Shown here: positions 11,643 through 30,269 of the stretch, one piece after another | Layout: each line of letters starts with the position of its first letter | Numbering within the stretch: position 1 is the first letter of the stretch | From: Lunularia cruciata | Lineage: Eukaryota > Streptophyta > Marchantiopsida > Lunulariales > Lunulariaceae | DNA: 64,000 nt | Assembly (NCBI GenBank): GCA_948567375.1 | Contig: OX419760.1 | Coordinates: 5,828,001 to 5,892,000 of the forward strand | Direction: 5' to 3' | Notes under the pieces: generated by a model | Told to the model about the DNA's origin: nothing | Database searches by the model: none | Seen by the model: only the letters and a program-made list of their open reading frames with translations | Position numbers and translations under genes: made by a program

Positions 11643-14600
11643 TACACATAGTATTTTGTGTACACAGCAAGTTGCTGGATGCACGACATGGCTTGGGTAT
11701 GCAAAAGAATTTCTGGTGCAAGCAGAAGAGGAATAAAACAAGGGCAGAGTGAGAAATCAAACATCAGTCACAAGTACATTAGGTTCATTTGTTTATGTTT
11801 GCTGCGGCGGCTCTAGATAGATAGATGATAGGGAGGTAAAAACAGTTTTGCAATTCCAGACAAGCAATTTGGTACAGGCTGAAAAGAAGGAACAGGAACG
11901 AAATGCTTGGCTAGCGACGGACCCCAACTTTTGCCAAGTGATCAGGAATTGTACCAAGTGTCGACATGTTGGCAACATATGCGCGTTTAATCACATGACC
12001 AGGATCTTTTAAGACAGCAGATATTCAAGAGCTTTCTGACTCTCCCGTATGTACTTCAAATGTCACTACTTGATCCTGGTGTTGTCGTTTCTCGAGCTTT
12101 ATAGAGACCTGTAGAACTGATCTGAATCCTTGAAGGTATCACTTGTGTAATCCACGCGCTATGTAGGTTGTAGTAGGGGGCTACTTCAGCAGGCTCCGGA
12201 ATTGTGGCAATTTGAAAGCCTTTGAGTGAGAAAGGAACTCCATCGTACTAAGCAACACTTGATGGACAGCAGAACGACATGAACACCTGGTGCAGCTTTA
12301 GAACAGTGCTGGAATGTATGGTCGTAGAACGCTGAGGGTACGAAGGTGGGCCTTGAGACCATGACAATGGAGAGCAACGGAAAGAGGACGAAGTGGCCAG
12401 GGAAAGGAAAATAGGCAGTGAGAAAACAGAATCTACAATAGATGCCTCTCCAACTAGCATCTTTCACATTTTTCAATGCAGATATCTGAACATGTTTTCT
12501 GACTCTCGGGAAATATTTACCATACTGTATCCGGCCTCGTCAGCGGTGGTACCTGGACACTTTGGAGTTGTTCTACCTCGATCGCAACTGTAGTATTTAC
12601 TTCTTTCATGTGAGAGACAAAGTGACCTTTCAACTAGATTTACACGCCCTTGCTTCTGGACTGGACCGGTCAAAGTACTAGAAGTTATATTTATCGTGTT
12701 GGCAATCATCGCGGAGTACTGATAGCATAATATAGATAATCGAGAACAGACTCCTTGGTCGCACCTCGAGTAGAAAGCGTTTGCTAATGAATCCGGATGA
12801 CTGCAAAAATCTGCCACCACTTATAAGTTGGAATGGGACTTATCACTGCTTGCGACTTGCAATCTGCTTTCGTAAATTCTGTGGGCATCATCACCTGCAG
12901 AGCAACATTGAGCACATCAGTGCACATAAAATGAGATAATATTTCTCCTTCAAGGTTCATAGTCCACCCGGTAAGCCTTGAGTACACTGATCTTGATTAG
13001 TTGACTGAGGATGCCAGGTACAGGGGTAAAGATAGTTAGAAGATAGATCTTGATTGGAAGTATCCGTAAACGCTAGGTAGTAAGTTCCCAATTTTCTTGA
13101 TCTTTTCCTTTTCTGGTTGATCTCTTTAAGGTCTTACTTGTCTTCCTGATTCGGTACCTCGAGAGAATAGGCGTGGGCACTTGTCTGGATAGGTATCACA
13201 TACATCATGTGGAATATCTAGACAAGAGCTCCATGTTTCACTTTCTAAAGAACAACTGCCGAAGGAAAATGTTGGACCTTACCCTTCCATCGTATGAGAG
13301 AGCGCCGAACACCCAAGGATCTCTCGGACGCCACGGGATTCCTGCACTTCCGCTGCACACAATTTACATGATACACAATTGTCAGGTTTCCATTCCGCTG
13401 GATATTGGCGTACTTTGCTACTTTCCGTAACTTACAACCAACACCAGTTACGGCACAGTCTGAGTGATCAAAATTCAGTTGCTTGGAAACAAAGTCCAGA
13501 AAGCCGCAAATGTTCGACTCTTACAGTACCTTTTCCATTTTGAGTCACTGCTTGATACAGGAGGATACACGCCACAAATTGACCACTTAGTCTGTTCCAG
13601 CACTCTGCATTTCACTCCTCGAATTAGTACGTAATTACTATCTATTGAGTGATAGGGTACAGAACCCCGTTGTAAATAACCCGGTTCCATACCCACATCT
13701 GACCAGATTAACTTTGAAATTTGGCGGTAACATAGTAAAGATTGTCATAACTGCGAATCACATAGAGAGATAAATTTGCATATGTGGGCATTATTTCTAT
13801 AGATCCACAATACCAATTTTGCATGATGGGAAAATGAATAGTTCATTTCAGCATTCTCAAACAAGGAAGAAAAGATCATAATTCACTTAAATATACATGG
13901 ATTTTTCATATAAGAATAAATTAATTGTAATATTCGTTGTATAATTTATTTTAATAAAATAGAAATTGCAAGATTATGCTGATCTAGTGACAAAGTCCAC
14001 AATGATGCAAGCGGCGGCCAGTCTCATTGTTGCATTCAAAACCCGAACGCTTGACGAGTTGTTGATTTATCAGGTCGTGAAGTTGATCCTTGCACAATCC
14101 CGCAACTTGTCCGCAATCAGATACTCCGGGAACTCTAAACCCTAAATTGTGTGTGATTTTTAGCATAATCCAAATTTGATGTTTATTAAAAATTTCCCTA
14201 AATTTATAATAAATTATTGTACTCGAAGAATAAAGACTACGTTCTGTTCTTCAGATCTTGGAAGAAGGAAATGAAAGATTCGGTGTCAGTAAAAGGAAAG
14301 GCAAATTTATAAAAGATCCTTCTTTTGGGTAGATAATCTTTCACAAACACAACAATTGAGAGATATGGATTTCAACGTCAAGGATACATTATCCTTTCCA
14401 GAGTAGTGTTCTTTGTAAATGGAAGAAATAGAAGATTTCGTTGGGCCCAGATTTCGTTGAGAATCGGAATAATATTCTACCTCGATATTTGCAGTAGTTG
14501 GAGACCTTGATAGATATGTTTTGCGGGGCATTATTGGTGGTAAGTTGGATCAATATTCAAAGAGCGATGCAAAATTGTCATGATGTGTATAAGTAGTAAA

Positions 14601-19040: not shown

Positions 19041-19636
19041 TGTCATGCGTATATACATTGCTACAAAACATACATTGTTGTCAACATCATACACTATAAA
19101 AGCACAACTCACATATAAGTCATACATAGAGTCTAAAGTGCCACAATAATCAGATTGCTTACCACTCTCAACTCAACTCAACTCAGATCAGTACTTGATC
19201 TATCACTCTATAAACTGCCAACAACTGGGCAGTACTTGATCTGTCACTCTATAAACTGCCAACAACTGGGCATTGATTACAATCAAGCCACACCTACTCA
19301 AGCATAGAGAATCCAGGTGACGCTCACTGGCCTCTGTCCACCATAGTCAGGAACTCGAAGGCTCAACATCAGAGAAGTGAGCTCTCTGGGGCTCACTTCA
19401 AAACTATACCCCCTGGACTCGAGCTAGCTTTGAAACCCTAATGGTCCCACTGACAGCACACTCGACGGTGCAAACTGTGCAAAGTGACGGTGAGCCCCAC
19501 CGTGAAGTCAGTACCCCAAACAGAAAATCTGACCGTCGGAAAGTAGTCTTTGAGAAACTGCTGAAATAACTCTAACTACTATCACTGGAACTCTAGTGTT
19601 TGAGCATCTAGATGCATCACTACAAATGGCGTGACA
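19041..19636 (-). repeat. 3' LTR of the methyltransferase-bearing retroelement
   Basis: A 596-bp LTR. Its part at 19147-19636 matches the 5' LTR. The remaining 105 bp (19041-19145) are missing from the 5' LTR but recur at 19639-19743. A 41-bp tandem duplication (starts at 19189 and 19230) is present only here. A near-palindrome ACGGTG...CACCGT lies near 19487-19503. Confidence 0.85.
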
Positions 19637-19638
19637 GC

Positions 19639-19743
19639 TGTCGTGCGTATATACATCGCTACACAACATACATTGCTGTCAACATCATACACTATAGAAG
19701 CACAACTCACACATAAGTCATACATAGACTCTAAAGTGCCACA
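19639..19743 (-). repeat. Extra 105-bp copy of the LTR terminal segment, between polypurine tract and 3' LTR
   Basis: This repeats the end segment of the LTR (19041-19145) and is separated from the LTR start by two bases (GC at 19637-19638). On the element's strand the order is tract, LTR tail, GC, complete LTR, which resembles an LTR-LTR junction. The 5' LTR lacks the segment. Confidence 0.8.
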
Positions 19744-19757
19744 ATCGCCCCCCTAGC
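19744..19757 (-). promoter_or_regulatory. Polypurine tract of the methyltransferase-bearing retroelement
   Basis: On the minus strand this reads AGCTAGGGGGGCGA just before the TGTGGCAC of the LTR tail. A purine run at this place primes plus-strand DNA synthesis in LTR retroelements. Confidence 0.6.
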
Positions 19758-19914
19758 TGGCGGTTAGGTCCCTCTAACTCCAGATAGCCATCTATTCTAA
19801 GGATATGGTATACCCTCTAATGGACAAAGATCAAGAGGCCGGGTGCTATGGAGCCCCATTGTTAGTCGCCTGTTTGTAATCAATACCATATAAAGAATGA
19901 ACTAGCTATAGGTC

Positions 19915-20212
19915 AAGTACATCTAGGACATAACCACTATCCCTGAGGAACCACCGTGAGGGAAGGAGTCATACATGCCATATGCCATCCTCTCAAACAG
20001 CTATCACACACTAACACAATAGCAGCTCCACCAGAAGAGCCACATAACATACACCTCAAGCCTGCACGTACAAGTGCCAAGCTTGGGTCCATAATACCAT
20101 CAATGTTTGGGAGGTGGCATGGCACACAATTGTGCACATGATCCTTCCAAACAACACCATCACGTCCTTCTAACACAAGGACTCTAGATGGCAAAACCTC
20201 GTGCACTCTCAA
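19915..20212 (-). pseudogene. PHD finger at the C-terminus of the retroelement polyprotein
   Basis: After the integrase, a Cys/His array reads CMLCGSSGGAAIVLVCDSC, then GWHMAC, with a final WLCPRC just downstream on the same strand. This is the Cys4-His-Cys3 order and spacing of a PHD finger (about 20053-19915), including the Trp-His before the sixth ligand and the Trp before the last Cys pair. PHD fingers usually read histone H3 tails. In chromoviruses a chromodomain occupies this position, so the finger may steer integration to particular chromatin; that is inference. Fossil, broken. Confidence 0.75.
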
Positions 20213-20254
20213 GATAGTGCGGCCTGTAGAAACATCAAGTGTCGTCGGTGATGT

Positions 20255-21490
20255 CTATTGTAGATATACATAGTTGCATGGATGAAATCGACAAATCGAG
20301 GGTCTATAACCTCCTCCTTGAATGGTAGCATAGCGTAAAGTATCTCTATGATGAGCAATTGCCAAGTTCTCAAAGGCCATTGGCATCACTCCCCGAAAGA
20401 TCTCTGCCCGTTGAGAACATGCTCTCATCCATACATCAAGATCATCCAAGTTCAAAACTACATTAGCATCTCGACAAATGGCTGTAAGTAAATCTAGATC
20501 TCGTCCATAGAGTAGAAAGTATGGAGAGAAGGATGCTAAGGAGGCTTGCCGGCTGAACCGATAGCCCATGGCCAACCAAGGTAACTGGAGATCCCAATCT
20601 CCCAAGTGGCCTCTCTGCAAACCATACTATTGCAATCCTCTCTTCACCGTCTGAACCACTCTCTCTGCTAAGCCATCTGCCTCAAGGTGATCTCGGGATA
20701 TGGTATGATGATCAATCAAAGCCTTATCACACAAGATCTAAAACTCCCCCAAGAACTCTGTACCCTGATCAGTCAAAACCTCAGCTGGTGCACCAAAATG
20801 ACTAAGAACTCGATCCAGGAACAAGTAAGTTGTCCCTTCACTAGACTTGTCAGGAAGTGCCACAAACTCAATCCACTTGGAGAAATGCTCCACCATCACC
20901 AAAACATACCGTTGATGTCTCACAATCAGCGGTAAAGGTTCAGCAAAGTCCAAAATCCAACGGTAACCCAATCCCATGATAGGTAATAGGTGTAACTGTG
21001 GGGTAGGAGCATTGAATGATGCTCTAACTTGGTCACAAACCACACATCTGGCAACAAACTGCTGTACCTCGGTCTGCATACCGCACCACCAATAATGACT
21101 CTGGAGTAAGCTATATGTACGCTTTACTCCAAAATGTCCTAGCTCCTCATGAGCATGACGGACCAACTGTGGTCTCTGAGATGGAAGTGGTACTACTCGC
21201 ACTCTCCCATCCTCCCATACACACAAAAGGTGTCTACCCTCCAATCTGAACCGTCTGGCTTGCTGAAGAACACGGTCTCTCTCCTTGGCCCCAACTGTGC
21301 CACCCACAACACTAGTGCAAAGATAGTCCATCACTAAGATATCATCATGAATGTCTTGCTGAATTGTACCAATATCTTCACTCTCTAGATCTGTGACCTC
21401 AATAACTCCTCTTGTATGCGTTGAGAGAGATACCGCCAAAGCCTCTGCAAATATATGTAGAAAGGCCAATGCATGCCAACCTGGCACCAT
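20255..21490 (-). pseudogene. Integrase region of the methyltransferase-bearing retroelement
   Basis: The zinc-binding HHCC module is seen in HAHEELGHFGVKRT (His pair) and ARCVVCDQV (Cys pair), around 21160-21010. The catalytic core shows the expected acidic positions in LDFAEPLPLI, LTDQGTEFLGEF and the DGLAERVVQTVKRG segment. A C-terminal region follows to 20255 (HLGDWDLQLPWLAMGYR, then LASFSPYFLLYGRD). Integrase inserts the cDNA into the host chromosome. Fossil, broken. Confidence 0.85.
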
Positions 21491-21549
21491 CTCCTCATTT
21501 GTCTCACCATGCCAATGTGCTCCGGTCTGATCCTACTGGCTAGGACATG

Positions 21550-22950
21550 GGTTTCTACTCAACCCATCTATATCACGGTTCACCACTCTAGGTCTATGAA
21601 CAATCGTGAAATCATACTCTTGTAAAATCAGAGCCTATCGTGCAAGCTTCCCTGAAAGCTTGCCGGACTCCATCAACCACTTCAATGGCTGATGATCAGT
21701 GATGAGAATGAAGAGGTTACCAAATAGGTAACATCAAAAATGTGCTACTGCCCAAATTGCTGCCAAGCACTCTCCCTCATATGAACTATACTTCGCCTCC
21801 GCTGAATTGTTGGAGCGACTAGCATAGGCCACCGTAAACTCCTTCTCCTCATCATCATGCTGGGTGAGCACCGCTCCAAGCCCCAACATACTCCAATCAG
21901 TATGAACCTGAAATGGTCATCCCTTGATCGGTCTCCTCAAAATAGGAGCAGATGTCAACCTCTCCTTGAGCTCTACAAAAGCTCTCTCCTGCTCATCTCT
22001 CCAACACCACTCCTGTGTAAGCTTGGTTAGCTTCATCAAGGCCTTGGCAATGGCACTAAATCCTCAAACATAGCAACAATAGAAGTTTGCCAACCCAAGG
22101 AATGCTCGCACTCTGCTCACATCCGTCGGCCGAGGAATACGTGCAATAGCCTCTACCTTGGTCTACTGAACACCAAGTCCTCCGGGGTAGATAGTGTGAC
22201 CCAAATACTCAACCTGCTCGTGGAAGAACCTACACTTCCCAGGATGTAATTTGAGTCCATGAGATCTCAACCTCTCAAACACCTCCAACAATTGTCTCTC
22301 ATGCTCCTCCACAATTGATAAACCAAAATGTCATCAATATAGCACCGAGAAAAATCCAATCCAGCTAGGATCCTATCCATGACCCTATGGAACTCAACAG
22401 GAGCATTCTTTAACCCAAATGGTAAGAACCTCTATTGATATAACACATCCTTGCTGTGAGGATCAATAGCCCAAAATGTTGTCTTGGACTTATCCTCCTC
22501 CTTGATCGGCAATTGATGATATCCCACTCAAAGATCCAAAGCACTGAAGATCTTTGCATGCCCAATTGCATCAAAAATCTCCTCCGGTGTAGGCATGGCA
22601 TACCGATCAGCCCTGGTCTATCAATTGATAGGACGGTAATCTCCACACATCTGCCTATCTATATAGTTGCCATGCATATCCTTCTTGGTTGGCATCACTA
22701 TTGCTGATGCATACTCTCCATGTGAAATCTCCACCAAACCAGCCTCAAAAAGGTCACTACTCCGGCTTTGAATCAATGTCCTCTCCATATCACTATATCA
22801 ATAAGGATGTCGGAAAACTAGTGTGTCACTAGTCAGCTCAATCCGTATACCAGGTCCCTTCAGAGCACCCAAATCCTTCATACTGAAGGAAAAACAACTC
22901 GTGTGACTCCTCAAGAGCCTCCAAACCCTTCGTCTTTCCTATTTAGTAAG
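21550..22950 (-). pseudogene. Reverse transcriptase and RNase H of the methyltransferase-bearing retroelement
   Basis: RT blocks in order: SHGEYASAIVMPTKKD and MCGDYRPIN (about 22725-22620), FSALDL with GYHQLPIKEEDKSKTTFWA (about 22540-22480), FLPFGLKNAP (about 22430-22400) and the catalytic RCYIDDIL (22345-22325). RNase H follows at about 21900-21550, with [15 protein letters not shown] and ITDHQPLKWLME. These convert the RNA genome to DNA. The MCGDYRPIN spelling is common in Ty3/gypsy elements of non-flowering plants and algae (from memory). Fossil, broken. Confidence 0.87.
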
Positions 22951-23299
22951 CTTGGGTCCAAGATCTGGCTCCCAAGTATCCTCTGTAACTATAGTAGGAG
23001 TGGAAGACGTACTGACTGACTGCTACACTGGGCCCTTGGGAGCAATAGTGTCATGCTCCCGACCACTAGAGGTCCCAACCTCTATGTGAAAAACTCCCTC
23101 CACTCTGGCTGCAAGCTCTAAACGTCCTCTAGCTGCATCCCATGTGGACCAAGAGTGTAATCCAAGTAGCCCATGCTCACCTGGATGGACTCCAAGTAGA
23201 CCACTCTCCCTGGTAGCTACTGGATGTGTCCCAAGAATACCATGTCCACTCGGTCCATCGCCCCCAGCATGTGCTTGAATCGTCTTGATAGGCATAGGG

Positions 23300-24310
23300 C
23301 TCACAAGTGTCCAAGTGGTGATGCCTATCAAGCACATCCTACATTGCTTTGCCAAGCCAAGGCTCACAATCCAGGTCAAACAGTTCTAGTCCATAGCCTA
23401 ACCTAAAACCTGACGCTTAGATGCCTCCGACACTACTGGAACAGCGGTTATACCGGTACAAAAATCCATCACATAAGCATTGGGCTCCACCAATTGTTGT
23501 AACTGTGAGTCCCAAACAAGTCCAGGTCCTCCCTCTCGAAAAGCATGAGAGCCTGGGAAACTCATGAGTGTGGGAAATGCAGCTCTAGGCTGTCCAACTA
23601 GGTTCACCACTGCCATAGGTGACCTATCAGCCACTACCACTATCTGAGACTGACGCTCAACATCCAAGATATCATCAACAAGGATGTGGTCAAGTCGCTG
23701 AATCCCATCATAAGCGCGTTGTAGAACCTCTTTGGGTAAGAGGTTCGTCCACCAAAGACAAAGACAATGAGCCCGTGATCCCACTCTGTCTGCATCTAAC
23801 AATACAGCAGGTCCCATCCAAGAATGGACCTGATGTGTACTTGCCACCACTCTAGTGCGAGAATCACCCATCAAAGGAACATTCTCGAAAAAGTAAGCTA
23901 GAGAAATAGACTGATGAACCTGGAGATGTCGTTGTATCCGTAACATCTCCCAAAACACACCAGAACAAGGATCCTGAAGACCCAATCCTCTACCAGCACG
24001 TGTATGTCCCTGACATGGCCATCCAGAAATCACCAAGTGAATAGACCCATGTCTCTCTAGGTCATGCATCCCCAGTAAGGAAATGTCTCCTGGTAGGGCC
24101 TTCTGGTAACCTCTGACTGTTGACATCGGTAATAACTCCGGATACCAATAGGCCAAGTGTGCCACATGATGTAGAGAGACTTGTCTAGCAGTCTCATCTC
24201 TCTCTACATACAAGTACCTCTGTACTTGTATACCCGCCTATAACACCGCAGCTAGTCCGGTGTTGATCCCACCAAACAACTCCAATAGGCATATCCCCTC
24301 TACTGGTTAC
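23300..24310 (-). pseudogene. C5 cytosine DNA methyltransferase domain inside the retroelement
   Basis: A long open stretch (24213-23398, 271 codons) and its flanks show the ordered motifs of C5-cytosine methyltransferases. Motif I is LELFGGINTGL (24285-24253), the SAM-binding FxG loop. YVERDETAR follows. Motif IV is VISGWPCQGHTRAG, with the catalytic Cys at 24015-24013. Motif VI is FFENVP (about 23889-23872). A motif VIII-like VGSRAH...WWTNL lies at about 23784-23736, and VMDFCTGIT then KRQVLG near 23465-23398 fit motifs IX-X. The AH-x-x-x-x-W-x-N spelling resembles DNMT3/DRM-type de novo enzymes more than DNMT1, by eye only. The domain lies between protease and reverse transcriptase, so it was part of the polyprotein. 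Retroelements with captured C5 methyltransferases have been reported from dinoflagellates and charophyte algae. Fossil, broken. Confidence 0.87.
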
Positions 24311-24399
24311 TGCCAAGCAATGAGTGTGGTATCCAGAGGTGTCAAAGAATCGCCTCTGGAGGCTCATCCTCAAACTCATCTCTTGATGGTATGAAGGCT

Positions 24400-25282
24400 C
24401 CACTCCAAGCCTACTGCACCAACTGATCTGCATGTTGCTGCAATGCCTCCCCGGAACTCCACAATGGAACATCCAAGGTGGATGGAACAATCCTACTCGT
24501 ACTCCAAAGCCAAGTGATCTCCTCTGGTACTGGAGTATCCTCTACATGGGCGTTCCCCTCCAACAAGTCACCAAGCCAAGTAACTGCACCACTAAAAGCT
24601 AAAACTGATGATGCCATGGTCTCGGATTGTAGTGAGCCAAGACTGCCACTACTAAAGCGTATTGGTAGACGACATACCCGTCCCTCACCAAACTGCCAAC
24701 CAAGTCTATAAGAGGTTGTCTCCTCCCAATAGTCAATGCTGAAACCCATGGGGTATAACACTACTCCCCCAACTAGCACATCATATGACTTAGCTATTGT
24801 CACAATAGCCGGAGCTCTCACCACCAAGCTATTAGTTGGATGACAAGGCTAAACCTGGACAACAAGCTCCCCACGTGTGATGTATTGTGTTGAACCACCA
24901 TCTAGAGATGTCTGGATCTAAAATGGACACCTCTCCACATCGATCTTCCGTAACTCCAGACCGACAACTATAGCCTTCTCCAACATAAGAGGATGCGCAC
25001 CAGAGTCTAACACGACTCTTTGTGGTGTATAGATCTTCCTTGAAGGTCCCACCAAACAAAAAATCCCCCTCTGGTTATCCAATAGTTCAACACCAGGTGT
25101 GAACCGTGCTCTCTCAAAGGCCGGTCTAGTTGGCAACTCCTCCAGTCTAGCCGCTGTTGCCTGCTATAAACCACTGGTTGTTGAATGGATCCCATGCTCC
25201 TCAACCAAGTCAGCTCCACTACCAACCACCTCTGCTCTAGTAGTAGGAACTGCACCATCCCTACTCTCACACAACGTGGCAA
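24400..25282 (-). pseudogene. Aspartic protease region of the methyltransferase-bearing retroelement, plus linker
   Basis: The catalytic motif VVLDSGAHPLML (DSG at 25007-24999) is preceded by RGIFCLVGPSRKIYTP. The C-terminal part of the domain is visible as SYDVLVGGVVLYPMGFSIDY (about 24787-24728). The protease would cut the polyprotein. Between 24700 and 24400 there is a linker with no recognised domain before the methyltransferase. Fossil, broken. Confidence 0.8.
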
Positions 25283-25639
25283 CCAACCGGAATACTAGGG
25301 TTGGGTCAACTCCCAATGTAAATATATCACTAGCCAAAAACAAAGGACGCCGCATAATCAACTGAGCCGCCCCCAACATCATGCTAGACTCAGTTTGTGT
25401 AGTAGCAGGTGGCTGACTAGCAGGTAGTCCATCATGTACTCCATCACCACCTACCACACCTACACTGGGACGTCTAGGAACCATGGATGTCATCTGTAAT
25501 GCCTCAGATAGTGTGAAAGACTGGGGAAGTCTGACCTGTCTCCCAACCTCTCCTCTCTGTGGATCCAACTCCATTGGTGCTCCTCTAGGCTCTAAAGCAC
25601 GTAATGCACTCCTAGTCACTGCTGCAGATGCATCCACCT

Positions 25640-27085
25640 ATACTGCTCCACACATGAAGTCCAAAGCATCTCTATGACCAACATATGAGGTGGAAGCCTC
25701 AGCACCCGAGTCTGATATCCTCTGAGCAATAGCCATACTAGCCAATCTCTGCTCCAACTGCTCAATCCGAATAGCCATAGTTGTGTCAGAAGTAAGGGTA
25801 GGCACTGCACCCCTACTAGGTGTAGATCCTCTACCACCACCTCGTCCTCCATGAACTGGAGCTCCTCTACTACCTGCCATAGCAGCCCTACCACTCCGTA
25901 ACTCCGGGTGTAAGTCAAAACACCGGTCACTAATATGACCAAATCTGAGGCAATGCTCACACTGCCTCTGTGCTGGCTGCGATGCACTTGAGGTATCAGG
26001 TCTGCTGCCCTGAGTACACTCTCTCTGATGGTGAGGTCCACCACAAGTCCAACAAGCAACACCACCACTCACTGGCTGCTATTGACCCAAAAATGAGGGT
26101 AAGGGTCTAACTCCACTAGGCCCTCCACTCGCTCCATAGGATCTGAGCTGTCCACCATGTCCTCAAAAACCACCTGGGCGTGGTGCACTCTGCTACACTC
26201 TAGAAGAAGTCACAACCGTGGATGAGGTCTCCCTACCAAATCTAGATGTCACCACTCTCTCCTCCACCATGTTGAGCTCAATACGCTCAGCCAAACCAAG
26301 ACCAGTGCCAAAGTAGGTGAAGTAGCCTGTAACAACATAGCATCACAAACTCTACATCGCAACTCCCTATCCAGTATCCCATACCAAAACTAGACTGCTT
26401 GGGCCTTAGTAACTCCCTGAGTGAAACTAATAAGCCGCCTCATGCGACTGTATGCCTTGCGTAGGCTCTCTCCAGCCTTCCGCTGGAACTCCTACAAGCT
26501 TCTCAACTTGTCAGTCCGCACTCCCTGGTAGTTCTGCCTCAAACATAGGAAGAACTCCACCATGGGGTTAAACCCCGATACCACACCACCTCCTACAGCG
26601 GTAACTCCACTCGTAGTAGCACTATATCCAGCTAGTGCACCTCCACTAGCTCCACCCACACTACTTGAGCTAGAACTCATAGGTACAGCCAATCTACTCC
26701 TGGCCACCGAGCTTGAAGTGATAGAGACATAGTTCGGAGACCAATACTGTCTCCATAACTTGATCTCCTCCAAATGAGCTCTCCTGAACTCATGGTAGTC
26801 ATCCATCGGTGGACTCTCCGGATGTTGAAACAACCCCTTCCATGCCATGAAGGGTATCAACAAAGTTGGGTTCCGCATCTACTACAGATCACATTAACTA
26901 TCCAACTCTTGGATGAAGTCATCCAACTCAATGGTACCCACTATACCAGAGTAACGCCTAGGGCCTTTGGAGGCCCCATAAATCTTGTCCATGTCCCACA
27001 ACAACAGTGCGGACACACCAAGTGCACTCTCAATTGAATCAACTCCTGTGTTGAACTCCAACTCAGAGTCAATCTCCTCCCTCAC
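25640..27085 (-). pseudogene. Gag of the methyltransferase-bearing retroelement
   Basis: The capsid-like core is recognisable around 26590-26260 (FNPMVEFFLCLRQNYQGVRT, followed by segments such as AYSRMRRLISFTQGV and ERIELNMVEERV). Two zinc knuckles follow at 26054-25920: CWTCGGPHHQREC and the canonical CX2CX4HX4C CEHCLRFGHISDRC. These bind the RNA genome during particle assembly. An acidic N-terminal part extends to about 27085. Fossil, broken. Confidence 0.8.
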
Positions 27086-28533
27086 TGGGACTTGAGATAC
27101 ATGCTAATATCGAGCACCACTCCGAGTAAACCCACTGTGTACTACAGGGCTAACTCCTTTGGAATCTCCAAAGAACTCCGTCGTGACAAAGTAACCACAA
27201 CAGCAAACCTGAACTACCAACTGCAACCGCAAGTCGCAACCGCAAGTGCCTCACCACGTGCCAACACCACCAAGTATCAATACCAACTAAGCACCACCCA
27301 CTAATGTAACTCTAACCAAGATAACTACACTAGGGGAAAGGGCAACCTGTAACCTGCCATCATAACACGCACTCTCACGGTCTGTAGGTCATCACTTCCT
27401 GCCTCACCGGATAGAAACAAAGGTAATATGACTGGTCATCACTCCAGCCTCACCACCAAGAGCACACCAGAGCACCAACGCTCAAAAGTTAGGGCACCTC
27501 ACACAAACGTGGTGCACAAACAAGAAGTAGAGAATGGAGAGGGTCCAATCATAAGAAATCTAAACAAAAACCCTCCATCTCATAACACAACACGTGACTG
27601 ACTCTGCCACCATTTGGCATTTGACATAAGAGAAGTCCGTATCTAAGTCCTAAGCTACCAGGATCACCAAGAATGGGATCAAACTGCCTCTCCTAGCCAA
27701 AGCTACATGTGTATAGATAACAATGACACAGTCACTAAGATAACAAGTGAGGGTGGACCAGTTGGCTAGGGCACCAATCTAGGAACAAGAGATCTAGGGG
27801 TCAAACCCTGTTGCGCACAATCTAGTAGGAAAGGTAGAATTTGCCAACCAATGACCAAGATCTACTCTAAACTAGTTAGCCTCACACCAACAAGTTGGCT
27901 TGTTGGCCCTTATAGGCCTTCGTAGCCTCTCATAGCCCTATGCCTCGAAGCCTCTAAACGCCCAAATGAGGCCTTTCTTATTGCCACTTTGAACCTCAAA
28001 ACTTCTGGCAAAACTTCTCTAAATCTACAAAAGTCCTCCAAACTAGCAAAACTCCTGCAAATGTGGCCAAACAGTAAAACTCTTCCAAATCTGGCCAAAA
28101 TCTGACATAAATCCCAACCAAAATCTGATGTAAACCCTCAAGTTGGCTGTCTGCCAAGTCCCCCGCTAACTTTCGACTCAAGCCAAATTGACAACACGGG
28201 TTTCTCCAAATCACAAATTCATGAGAATAGCTTCACAACTCCCCCTTCAATTTGACTTTCTGAGCCCAACTTGTAGCAAATTGGTCTTGCCTTCACCTCT
28301 TGAGCTCAAATCACAACCACTGCTCAAAATTTGCTCCTTCTTTGCTCAAAATTTGGCCAGCACTTCCGCACACCGTTTGCCTAATTGCCAAATCTACATC
28401 AATTGATTGAGCTTTTGCACACTAGGGAAACACTAAACTTGAATTGAGCTACCAACGATCCACCGAGCTTGGAGATACCACCAACACTCAAAGTTCTTGC
28501 ACCCGATTTCCCCCTGACTTCACTTCTCTGATG
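27086..28533 (-). other. Leader of the methyltransferase-bearing retroelement
   Basis: About 1.4 kb lies between the 5' LTR and Gag, long for a leader, with no recognised domain. The same sequence (27165-27960) recurs at 34370-35097 in the second, truncated copy. I did not find a convincing tRNA primer site beside the 5' LTR, in line with the altered structure of that LTR. Confidence 0.6.
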
Positions 28534-28982
28534 TAATCAGATTGCTTACCACTCTCAACTCAACTCAACTCATATCAGTACTTGATCTATCACTCTATAA
28601 ACTGCCAACAACTGGGCACTGATTACAGTCAAGCCACACCCACTCAAGCATAGAGAATCCAAGTGATACTCGCAGGCCTCTGTCCACTATAGCCAGGAAC
28701 TCGAAGGCTCAACATCAAAGAAGTGAGCTCTTTGGGGCTCACTTCAAAATTATACCCCTTGGACTTGAGCTAGCTTTGAAACCCTAACGGTCCTGCTGAT
28801 GGCACACTTGACGGTGTGAACGGTGCAAAGTGACGGTGGGCCCCACCGTGAAGTCAGTACCCCAAACACAAAAACTGACTATCAGAAAGTAGTCTTTGAG
28901 AAATTGCTAAAATAACTCTAACTACTATCACTGGAACTCAAGTGTCTGAGCATCTAGATGTGGCACTACAAATGGTGTGACA
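28534..28982 (-). repeat. 5' LTR of the methyltransferase-bearing retroelement, lacking the terminal 105 bp
   Basis: This 449-bp segment aligns with 19147-19636 after allowing for the 41-bp duplication there. It contains the near-palindrome ACGGTGGG-C-CCCACCGT at 28833-28849. The 105-bp segment that completes the other LTR is absent between here and the leader. Confidence 0.82.
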
Positions 28983-28989
28983 TCCACTA

Positions 28990-30234
28990 TGCTACTCGAA
29001 GCTCTCCAATTGCCTCTCATGCTCAAGCATTAATCTCTCTTGCTCCTCTACGCTCTCCAATTGCCTCTTGCACTCAAGCACTAATCTCTCTTTCTCCTCT
29101 TCACTCTCTAATCTACTCTCACACTCAACTAGAAGTCTCTCTTCCTCCTTAGCCACTCAAACACAATCATCTAAATCACATGTGATGTCAATAGAACAAG
29201 AAGAAGATGAAGGTACTCTCAAGTGCATGGGATGAGGTGCTCCCTCCATGGATGGAAAGAGGAGAGAAGAGGAAGAAGAGGGAGATGGAGCATTCTCAAA
29301 GGATGAAGATGGAGAAAGAACTCTCTCACTAAAACTATCACTCAATAACCTCACTAGTAGTAAGGTATGTATTTCAACACAAATCTGTTGACCACTTGTT
29401 CATAAATGGTACATTTAGTCATCCATCAAGTCAAAATCACTTTGGAATCAAGTAAATACGCAAGTTCATTAATTAAGGCATGTTAAATCAACTCATTTAT
29501 TAAATCTGGTAATGGTATATACAACCAACATTGTATTTTTCAAACAATAAAAACATAAAAATATATATGAAAAAATTCAAATCTAATCAATCACTCACCA
29601 TCCTTATCCTCTACCTCATCCTCCACATCATTAGCACTTGTGCCCTTATCCTCACTCTCTAAATTCTCATGATCATCACCATCATCCTCTCATTGTATAT
29701 AATCTCCTCCTTTCCATCACTCAAGTACATCACTTCCTCCTCAAGAATGAAACCTCTCTCCACAAAGAGATGAGTGAGTATCTGTCCAAGGAAGGTAACT
29801 TTGAACTTGTGCCACTTAGGTCTCCTCAATTGGCTTGGCAAACTCCCCACCTCTGCGATGATACCTTGAAATGCTAACTCCTTCCAATAATAATCCTCCA
29901 CACCAAATCTCCTCAACTTTGTCTTGGTATTGAGAACCAAATGCCCATTTACAATCTTGGGCCGCAAAGATGGTACCACAAGTATACCCATCAATTGGAA
30001 GAAAGGCCTAAAAGCAAGATATACACATTGTTTTGCCAAATACCTCTTTGCAACCCTATGTCTTTGTGGAAACCAATCTGAAATAATTGTGCAAGGAATT
30101 GTCCTCCTTTTAGGCATTGCAAGCACATCTCTAACTATATTCATTGTCAATTGAAATTGACTCCCCTTGACCAAATGAATGCAAGAGTTCTTGTCCCAAG
30201 AAGCCACAAACTCAATACATAGGAAAACTTGCAA
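28990..30234 (-). pseudogene. Mobile-element gene 2, copy 1, 5' part; unrecognised protein
   Basis: A 191-codon frame (30234-29659) begins MQVFLCIEFVASWDK and contains GSQFQLTMNIVRDVLAMP, SDWFPQRHRVAKRYLAKQ and NTKTKLRRFGVEDYYWKELA. It resembles no family I can name, though the layout recalls poorly characterised plant transposon-encoded proteins. An acidic tract follows (about 29680-29600), then a coiled-coil region (29355-28990) built from repeats of the QLESVEEQERLVLERKR type. The gene then continues beyond the inserted retroelement at 19035. Copy 2 is at 35500-37960. No catalytic motif is visible. Confidence 0.5.
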
Positions 30235-30269
30235 AAAAAAACCAACAATAAAATTGTTACTTCAACAAA

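Follow-up and report, generated by a model that had tools for sequence, protein, structure and literature searches.

Retrotransposons are normally the targets of DNA methylation. Elements that encode a DNA methyltransferase of their own were described by de Mendoza et al. (2018; PMC5890265), and the closest to the case reported below is KnitGypsy-Dnmt3 of Klebsormidium nitens, for which a figure legend of that paper gives Gypsy domains, a DNMT3 and DIRS-like repeats. That text reports de novo CG methylation for retrotransposon DNMTs and a Ka/Ks below 0.2 for the methyltransferase of the K. nitens element, and leaves open what the enzyme does for the element. Here we describe a family of this kind in a land plant, Lunularia cruciata. 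Our starting point was a 64,000-nucleotide stretch of contig OX419760.1 (the window), in which positions 19041–28982 of the minus strand hold one complete but dead Ty3/gypsy copy carrying a DNMT3-class C5 DNA methyltransferase. We read it as a dead member of a large Ty3/gypsy family with a standing DNMT3-class methyltransferase, belonging to the KnitGypsy-Dnmt3 lineage, and give this reading a probability of about 0.8.

The window family shares with KnitGypsy-Dnmt3, as far as the figure legend and main text describe it, the Gypsy pol domains, a DNMT3 within the coding region and repeats in a DIRS arrangement; it differs by its land-plant host, its many copies, a methyltransferase placed before a leaky-type stop codon and a PHD finger after the integrase. 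As the legend combines DIRS-like repeats with Gypsy domains, the odd repeat structure is common to both. A DNMT3 inside a retrotransposon and repeats arranged A-coding-B-A-B are also found, according to the same text, in SymbioDIRS-Dnmt3 of Symbiodinium, but that element uses a tyrosine recombinase and a DIRS reverse transcriptase (RT), whereas the window family has a DDE integrase, a Gypsy RT and a 4-bp target duplication. Membership in DIRS is not indicated by the Pfam scans of the window and sister copies, which detected an rve integrase instead of a phage integrase. Chromoviruses are chromodomain-bearing Gypsy elements of plants and fungi with a chromatin reader after the integrase. The window family resembles them in the order of its Gypsy pol domains and in having a chromatin-reader domain behind the integrase, but the Pfam scan detected no chromodomain at the integrase C-terminus and a PHD finger (PF00628) in its place, and the methyltransferase and the split repeats are additional features.

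The first-pass annotation of the window, made from the letters alone, had proposed a Ty3/gypsy element with its own C5 methyltransferase located between protease and RT. This holds: a DSG protease lies upstream of the methyltransferase, and RT-RNase H and integrase follow downstream. In element sense the order is A1, gag pieces, protease, methyltransferase, TAG, RT-RNase H, integrase, PHD finger, B1, A2 and B2, where the A and B segments constitute split direct repeats. The features, with ORF denoting open reading frame, are as follows:

19041–28982, minus strand: whole element, 9942 bp, starting in element sense with TGTCACACCA and ending with ACGCATGACA
28534–28982, minus strand: repeat A1, 5' end of the element, 449 bp
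25638–26078, minus strand: decayed gag region with CCHC-type zinc knuckles; more gag pieces lie upstream to about 27100
24918–25163, minus strand: protease piece with a DSG motif, identified by eye
23380–24310, minus strand: decayed DNMT3-class C5 DNA methyltransferase domain, assigned by Pfam, motifs, profile search and the predicted fold of a relative
23017–23025, minus strand: inter-ORF stop TAG (23025–23023) followed by CAGTCA, a UAG-CAR-YYA leaky-stop context
21560–22842, minus strand: decayed RT and RNase H, limits approximate, from alignment to ORF2 of sister copy L013
20630–21532, minus strand: integrase with H2C2 zinc-binding domain and rve core; 20738–21532 scored, lower limit approximate
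19937–20254, minus strand: integrase tail with PHD finger, PF00628 25.7 bits (cut-off 24)
19639–19745, minus strand: repeat B1, 107 bp, preceded by a purine tract that reads AGGGGGGCGA in most sister copies
19147–19636, minus strand: repeat A2, with a short internal tandem duplication in the window copy
19041–19147, minus strand: repeat B2, 3' end of the element

In the Pfam scan of the window, the integrase gave matches to H2C2 (5.6e-18) and rve (3.3e-09), whereas the gag and protease pieces gave none; both rest on sister copies and on motifs found by eye, the zinc knuckles of Gag having been identified in L013. The window copy has a frameshift ahead of motif I of the methyltransferase, a stop following GLAAVL and a motif X damaged by a deletion; every domain that was counted contains stops. 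The flanks of the copy, TGGA and TAGA, agree in three of four bases.

Concerning the enzyme itself, the largest methyltransferase ORF of the window (23398–24237, minus strand) matches the Pfam profile PF00145 (DNA_methylase) with 23.6 bits, above the curated cut-off of 22, and the less decayed copies L009 and L014 reach 31.2 and 31.6 bits. The motifs that the first-pass annotation had recognised are all present in the window copy and in unpermuted order: I (LELFGG), IV (GWPCQG), VI (ENVP), VIII (GSRAH..WWTNL) and segments resembling IX and X. Searched against the PDB, the single window ORF produced a weak match to DNMT3A (0.007), while a profile built from 11 family members yielded E-values of 2.8e-27 for DNMT3A and 3.2e-24 for DNMT3B. 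The same profile gave 1.2e-15 for 4onj (labelled DNA methyltransferase, and presumably a plant DRM), about 3.5e-12 for DRM2, about 1e-9 to 1e-8 for DNMT2 and tRNA-C38 enzymes, about 1e-8 for HhaI and 0.44 for DNMT1. Assignment to the DRM, DNMT1, DNMT2 or bacterial class was thereby ruled out. For the relative P0001 a fold was predicted from 55 sequences with a predicted local distance difference test (pLDDT) score of 93 and a predicted template modelling (TM) score of 0.91, and the best 50 PDB matches of this model are all DNMT3 entries, with TM scores by target length of up to 0.84; a prediction from just 25 close rows was poor (pLDDT 49.8). Like the host DNMT3 L001 and human DNMT3A, the family enzyme has an unpermuted catalytic domain, and the P0001 model resembles the DNMT3A fold. 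It differs from them in that the Pfam scan of ORF1 detected no further DNMT3 domain beside the methyltransferase, and in that the element enzymes branch apart in trees (see below). The Pro and Cys of motif IV, the Glu and Asn of ENV and the His and Trp of motif VIII are kept in 25/25 sequences including the window copy, and the Gln of motif IV in 24 of them. Judged by these comparisons and by its conserved catalytic residues, the family enzyme belongs to the DNMT3 class and is a predicted C5 cytosine methyltransferase.

The window copy is one of many. A PF00145 search over the 566-Mb genome gave 2161 first-look candidates, of which 123 matches were scored, and about 116 of these cover the part of the profile that characterises the family. 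The seven that do not are L001 and L004, which are host DNMT3-type genes spread over several exons, L002, a host DRM-like gene with permuted motifs, as well as L003 and three further places. Among the methyltransferase-bearing family places, 24 were checked (L005–L028). In each of the 20 loci fetched at 9.9 kb, the methyltransferase and the pieces of RNase H, integrase and PHD occur in an unchanged order; for L015 the fetched stretch does not reach the upstream part, and in L017 a single gag piece could not be found. The objection that the first-pass annotation had raised against itself, namely that a methyltransferase gene landed later in the window copy alone, is ruled out for practical purposes: about 116 scored places as well as several named species carry the domain, in the checked loci at the same position. 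An RT search of the genome led to 92 scored matches (of 54146 candidates) with 97–100% identity to the query copy, and in 19 of these 92 places ORF2 comprises 1037 amino acids (aa) with a match free of stops. L009 has frames of 1428 and 966 aa, and ORF2 of L013 and L014 is 1037 aa long. RVT_1, RNase H, rve and PHD exceed their Pfam cut-offs in ORF2 of L009 and L013 (PHD with 42.6 bits in L009), while Retrotrans_gag stayed below its cut-off. The integrase residues D, D and E (D-X34-E) and the RT motif YIDD could be located in the family. When Calypogeia P0100 was used as a query for methyltransferase-free relatives in the same genome, the places returned resembled the same family, with shared coordinates and ORF2 length.

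In 19–24 copies other than the window one, picked for long frames, the pooled ratio of nonsynonymous to synonymous polymorphism (pN/pS) was 0.26 for RT-RNase H, 0.29 for PHD, 0.35 for the methyltransferase, 0.46 for gag-protease and 0.59 for the integrase, which places the methyltransferase between RT and integrase. In gag-protease, replacement changes were fewer among shared than among singleton variants (p 0.011). An alternative is that the domain has been kept for a role other than DNA methylation, such as nucleic-acid binding, a part in the particle or RNA methylation, or that it persists as an inert relic. Several relatives indeed have WEC for WPC in motif IV, with Glu replacing the Pro of PCQ, the domain is incomplete in some algal members, and SymbioLINE, an element of another type, was unable to methylate DNA in yeast according to the text of PMC5890265. 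Against this stand the catalytic Cys and Glu, invariant over the 11 rows of the family alignment, the PC kept in 25/25 sequences and the pooled pN/pS between those of RT and integrase. We consider such a role, or an inert relic, unlikely.

Between the methyltransferase and RT frames, the 22 sequences that are readable in frame have one in-frame TAG-CAG-YYA. When nine bases were left free between flanking anchors, TAG-CAG-YYA was found in 25/25 sequences; two anchor patterns were used, each with 24/24 fitting TAG-CAR-YYA, and jointly they cover all 25. The last triplet is CCA in 20 cases, CTA in three and TCA in two, all within YYA, and none of 93 decay stops inside the domains of the same copies fits TAG-CAR-YYA. 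As the copies are related, the 25 sequences do not represent 25 independent events. PMC2754532 reports that the CAR YYA hexamer after UAG is essential for readthrough in tobacco mosaic virus (TMV), with 32% for the TMV site in plants. The family thus shares UAG-CAR-YYA with the TMV-type leaky stop, which lies in a viral replicase there and at a retrotransposon boundary recognised by its sequence context here. According to our proposal, UAG-CAG-YYA would probably halt most ribosomes, yielding much Gag-protease-methyltransferase and little of the product extended by RT-integrase-PHD; with ribosomes mostly stopping, the enzyme would be as abundant as Gag and would be packaged into particles. Alternatively, TAG could be the plain end of ORF1, with ORF2 expressed by splicing or reinitiation. 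The public gene models P0080 and P0044, which bridge methyltransferase and RT over a shorter, intron-like gap, fit this idea. We regard it as quite improbable, given that ORF1 and ORF2 are in the same frame with one stop between them, that ORF2 has its 1037 aa with a stop-free match in 19/92 places and that the hexamer conforms to CAR-YYA in 25/25 sequences despite variation. In other lineages, too, several methyltransferase frames end 90–150 aa past motif X with tails that are similar within groups, for example in Calypogeia P0227 (..ASPEVVA) and Sphagnum P0051 (..ASPKVFA). These species are known as proteins only, and some frame ends may be contig ends. In two cases a methyltransferase frame and an RT-PHD frame have an equal longest-contig figure, P0172/P0055 (6232) and P0183/P0063 (7322), which suggests that each pair lies on one contig.

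Other bryophytes, to which the first-pass annotation had pointed as a place to look, do have relatives. A search with the window enzyme found 51 proteins, among them those of Calypogeia fissa, Sphagnum troendelagicum, S. tenellum and S. jensenii, Marchantia polymorpha and M. paleacea, and Riccia sorocarpa. A search with ORF2 gave 1544 proteins at E ≤1e-20; among the best 120, which were listed, are Klebsormidium, Closterium and Tetraselmis proteins with a methyltransferase, and the nearest named RT relatives are those of Calypogeia (77%) and Riccia (81% over 63% of the query). A methyltransferase profile search yielded 262 proteins, of which 120 were listed, and added a Chromochloris protein (PF00145, 25.0 bits). 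We take the names Tetraselmis and Chromochloris from the record codes Tetstr1 and Chrzof1. Both Tetraselmis rows align to the later two thirds of the family profile (73–74 bits); P0140, the one of them that was scanned with Pfam, has no PF00145 match. The relatives from the two chlorophyte records are more divergent than the bryophyte and charophyte ones. The position of the domain varies. Among the matches listed, the methyltransferase precedes the RT (place A) in 18 proteins and follows RNase H or precedes the integrase (place B) in 19, with the Chromochloris protein, whose tail aligns to the integrase start, counted with place B in addition. Place B Gypsy proteins with the order RNase H-methyltransferase-integrase include P0106, P0118, P0122, P0127, P0128, P0131, P0133, P0137, P0146, P0152 and others. 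Among the same matches, 133 proteins show the methyltransferase alone, and another 87 show RT, RNase H or integrase but no methyltransferase; since most of these 87 start near the RT, an enzyme encoded upstream could not be seen. P0125 and P0126 (1447 aa, with PHD) are related by their RT but fall outside the groups that showed the enzyme. The methyltransferase is also carried by P0175, from a record named as a Candidatus Obscuribacterales metagenome-assembled genome; perhaps this is plant or algal DNA in a bacterial bin. Scans of IMG/VR found no relative of the element, and a viral source within that collection was rejected.

In the methyltransferase tree (42 rows), the bryophyte group including the window family forms one clade (support 100), as does place B (96). 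In the RT-RNase H tree (101 rows), the grouping recurs for the named bryophytes (Calypogeia P0100 excepted), for Closterium and for Tetraselmis, and 15 place B rows fall together with two rows in which no enzyme was seen. Support for the deep branches of this tree is weak, and the length filter left a single outgroup row. An apparent conflict for P0067, which lies near bryophyte rows in the RT tree and beside Klebsormidium in the methyltransferase tree, dissolved, since a methyltransferase tree holding P0067 with the 33-row group containing the bryophytes was slightly better than the free search (p 0.59). To judge from the RT-RNase H tree and from a methyltransferase tree with DNMT3 rows (see below), bryophyte and Klebsormidium elements share common descent.

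The first-pass annotation had left the choice between an extension of the charophyte capture and an independent one. In favour of the latter, a donor existed, as the host genome has the multi-exon DNMT3-type genes L001 and L004 from which the bryophyte elements could have taken their enzyme, apart from the Klebsormidium event. In a 70-row tree with host L001 and human DNMT3A, however, all 68 element enzymes lie on one side of a branch with 100 support in the Shimodaira-Hasegawa-like approximate likelihood ratio test (SH-aLRT). Forcing the seven element rows of the bryophyte group together with host DNMT3 costs 94 log units and is rejected by the approximately unbiased (AU) test (p 0.006), in a tree whose two outgroup rows sit on long branches. 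Together with the odd repeats that the Klebsormidium element has in common with the family, this makes a new capture from the DNMT3 of a land-plant host very unlikely. Since the land-plant enzymes join the algal element enzymes, away from host DNMT3, the family most likely extends the known charophyte capture. A further question is how the elements came to be in both groups. Horizontal transfer between green algae and bryophytes, instead of descent from a green ancestor, would fit the patchy hosts, the many relatives from sequences without a species name (the majority) and the weakly supported deep branches; but the named bryophyte, Closterium and Tetraselmis rows each group, as descent predicts, and we consider transfer possible, though the less probable course. 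All trees are quick ones, with a weakly supported deep branch order.

The element ends show split direct repeats, A1-internal-B1-A2-B2, with TGTC...GACA termini; this layout rules out an ordinary long terminal repeat (LTR) structure with flush terminal repeats. The ends were analysed in 18 rows, from which L010 and L016 (incomplete A1) and the window copy were set aside, leaving 15 end-to-end sister copies of 9.59–9.96 kb (L015, L017 and L025 gave no full element). Perfect 4-bp target duplications flank 13 of the 15. The B1-A2 junction reads exactly GACAGCTGTC in 9/15 copies, with small changes in the other six, and the A2-B2 junction reads CTGATTA-TTGTGG in 14/15, where the end of A1 meets the bases that come after the purine tract ahead of B1. 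These junctions point to a two-LTR circle opened within an LTR: the cDNA ends (U5 ..CTGATTA and U3 TTGTGG..) would be joined into the circle, and the DDE integrase would open it at the palindrome inside one LTR, giving A1-internal-B1-A2-B2. A1 and A2 are 96.7–99.8% identical in all of the 15 copies but L013, which stands at 89.9%, and the window copy stands at 90.4%; the window insertion is therefore old and many of the fetched ones are young. Over these 16 elements, C-to-T differences between the two repeats number 68 against 568 CG, 54 against 815 CHG and 47 against 2142 CHH sites, counted on A1. In L021, with 99.8% the youngest of the 15, four extra bases from beyond A1 stand at the A2-B2 junction, along with an extended B2; this may record imprecise joining of cDNA ends. 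In the sister copies, ATCAGAG follows directly after A1 (window about 28533 downwards), which equals seven bases of the primer site commonly used with initiator tRNA in plants, but without its leading TGG.

Combining these observations, we tentatively propose one Gypsy lineage that captured a DNMT3 early in green plants and kept it from chlorophytes to bryophytes at two places in the polyprotein. In bryophytes the enzyme would be produced at Gag level by means of the TMV-type leaky stop, the particle would methylate the cDNA or two-LTR circle prior to integration and the DDE integrase would open the circle within the LTR. This composite proposal is, in our estimate, more doubtful than not. The least certain step of the main reading, which we put a little short of even, is that the enzyme would methylate cytosines, chiefly in CG, in the cDNA or circle. 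A new copy would then arrive marked like the silent repeats of the host and escape detection as naked foreign DNA, low expression being the price of such pre-marked arrival; the PHD finger may guide the integrase towards chromatin. If true, such an element would set its own silent epigenetic state even before it arrives. The retention of a de novo type methyltransferase across a wide diversity of green plants suggests that methylation can pay for an element. The leaky stop makes a concrete prediction on stoichiometry, and the repeat junctions one on a circular intermediate. Relatives are present in Marchantia, a land plant amenable to genetics, so that the use of the enzyme to the element can be tested in a model plant.

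Several observations weigh against the reading preferred here. An 18-row RT group that includes three Klebsormidium proteins shows the methyltransferase in no row, though most of these rows begin near the RT, where an enzyme encoded upstream would escape notice. Klebsormidium P0101 and Closterium P0129 are without stretches of the methyltransferase domain, and P0101 has EH for EN. The copies behind the pN/pS values were selected for long frames, and the comparison of shared and singleton variants is only suggestive for the methyltransferase (p 0.062), with no difference for RT, integrase and PHD. The nucleotides of the stop were read in this one genome, readthrough being judged by context, and relatives with methyltransferase and RT in one frame without a stop (e.g. 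P0066–P0068, P0101, P0111, P0129 and P0140) mean that the inter-ORF stop is not universal. Two of the 15 end-to-end copies (L013 and L021) have no matching target duplications, no ordinary tRNA primer site was seen by eye beside A1, and the enrichment of C-to-T differences at CG and CHG would also arise from host silencing alone.

As to novelty, this kind of element is already known from Klebsormidium, where KFL_009030040 (P0101) contains both domains in the order methyltransferase-RT. The open-licence literature searched (subscription journals were mostly outside the scope) yielded no description of land-plant retrotransposons bearing a DNMT, and a 2019 paper gives such transposons as absent from "land plants, such as tracheophytes", a statement that needs amending for bryophytes. 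The main text of PMC5890265 has no mention of readthrough, frameshift, PHD, Marchantia, moss or Physcomitrella, and refers to a bryophyte once, with regard to host DNMT3. Within the literature searched, several points are new: elements of this kind occur, and are abundant, in land plants; their enzyme precedes a leaky-type stop; a PHD finger forms the tail; further relatives and chlorophyte ones have the domain at a second place; and the repeat junctions provide an argument for a circle. Three features described here are absent from the first-pass annotation, namely the split direct repeats, the stop of leaky type conserved between the methyltransferase and RT frames, and the PHD finger.

Two minor observations concern the surroundings of single copies. 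At L019 there is a second B-A-B block (joined positions 11670–12341) just past the end of the first element, as though a further copy or a remnant adjoined it. Beside the window element, an ORF at 29659–30261 (minus strand) contains DWFPQRHRVAKRYLAKQCVY and by eye resembles the translated 3' flank of L028; the window element and L028 may thus both sit inside one other repeat.
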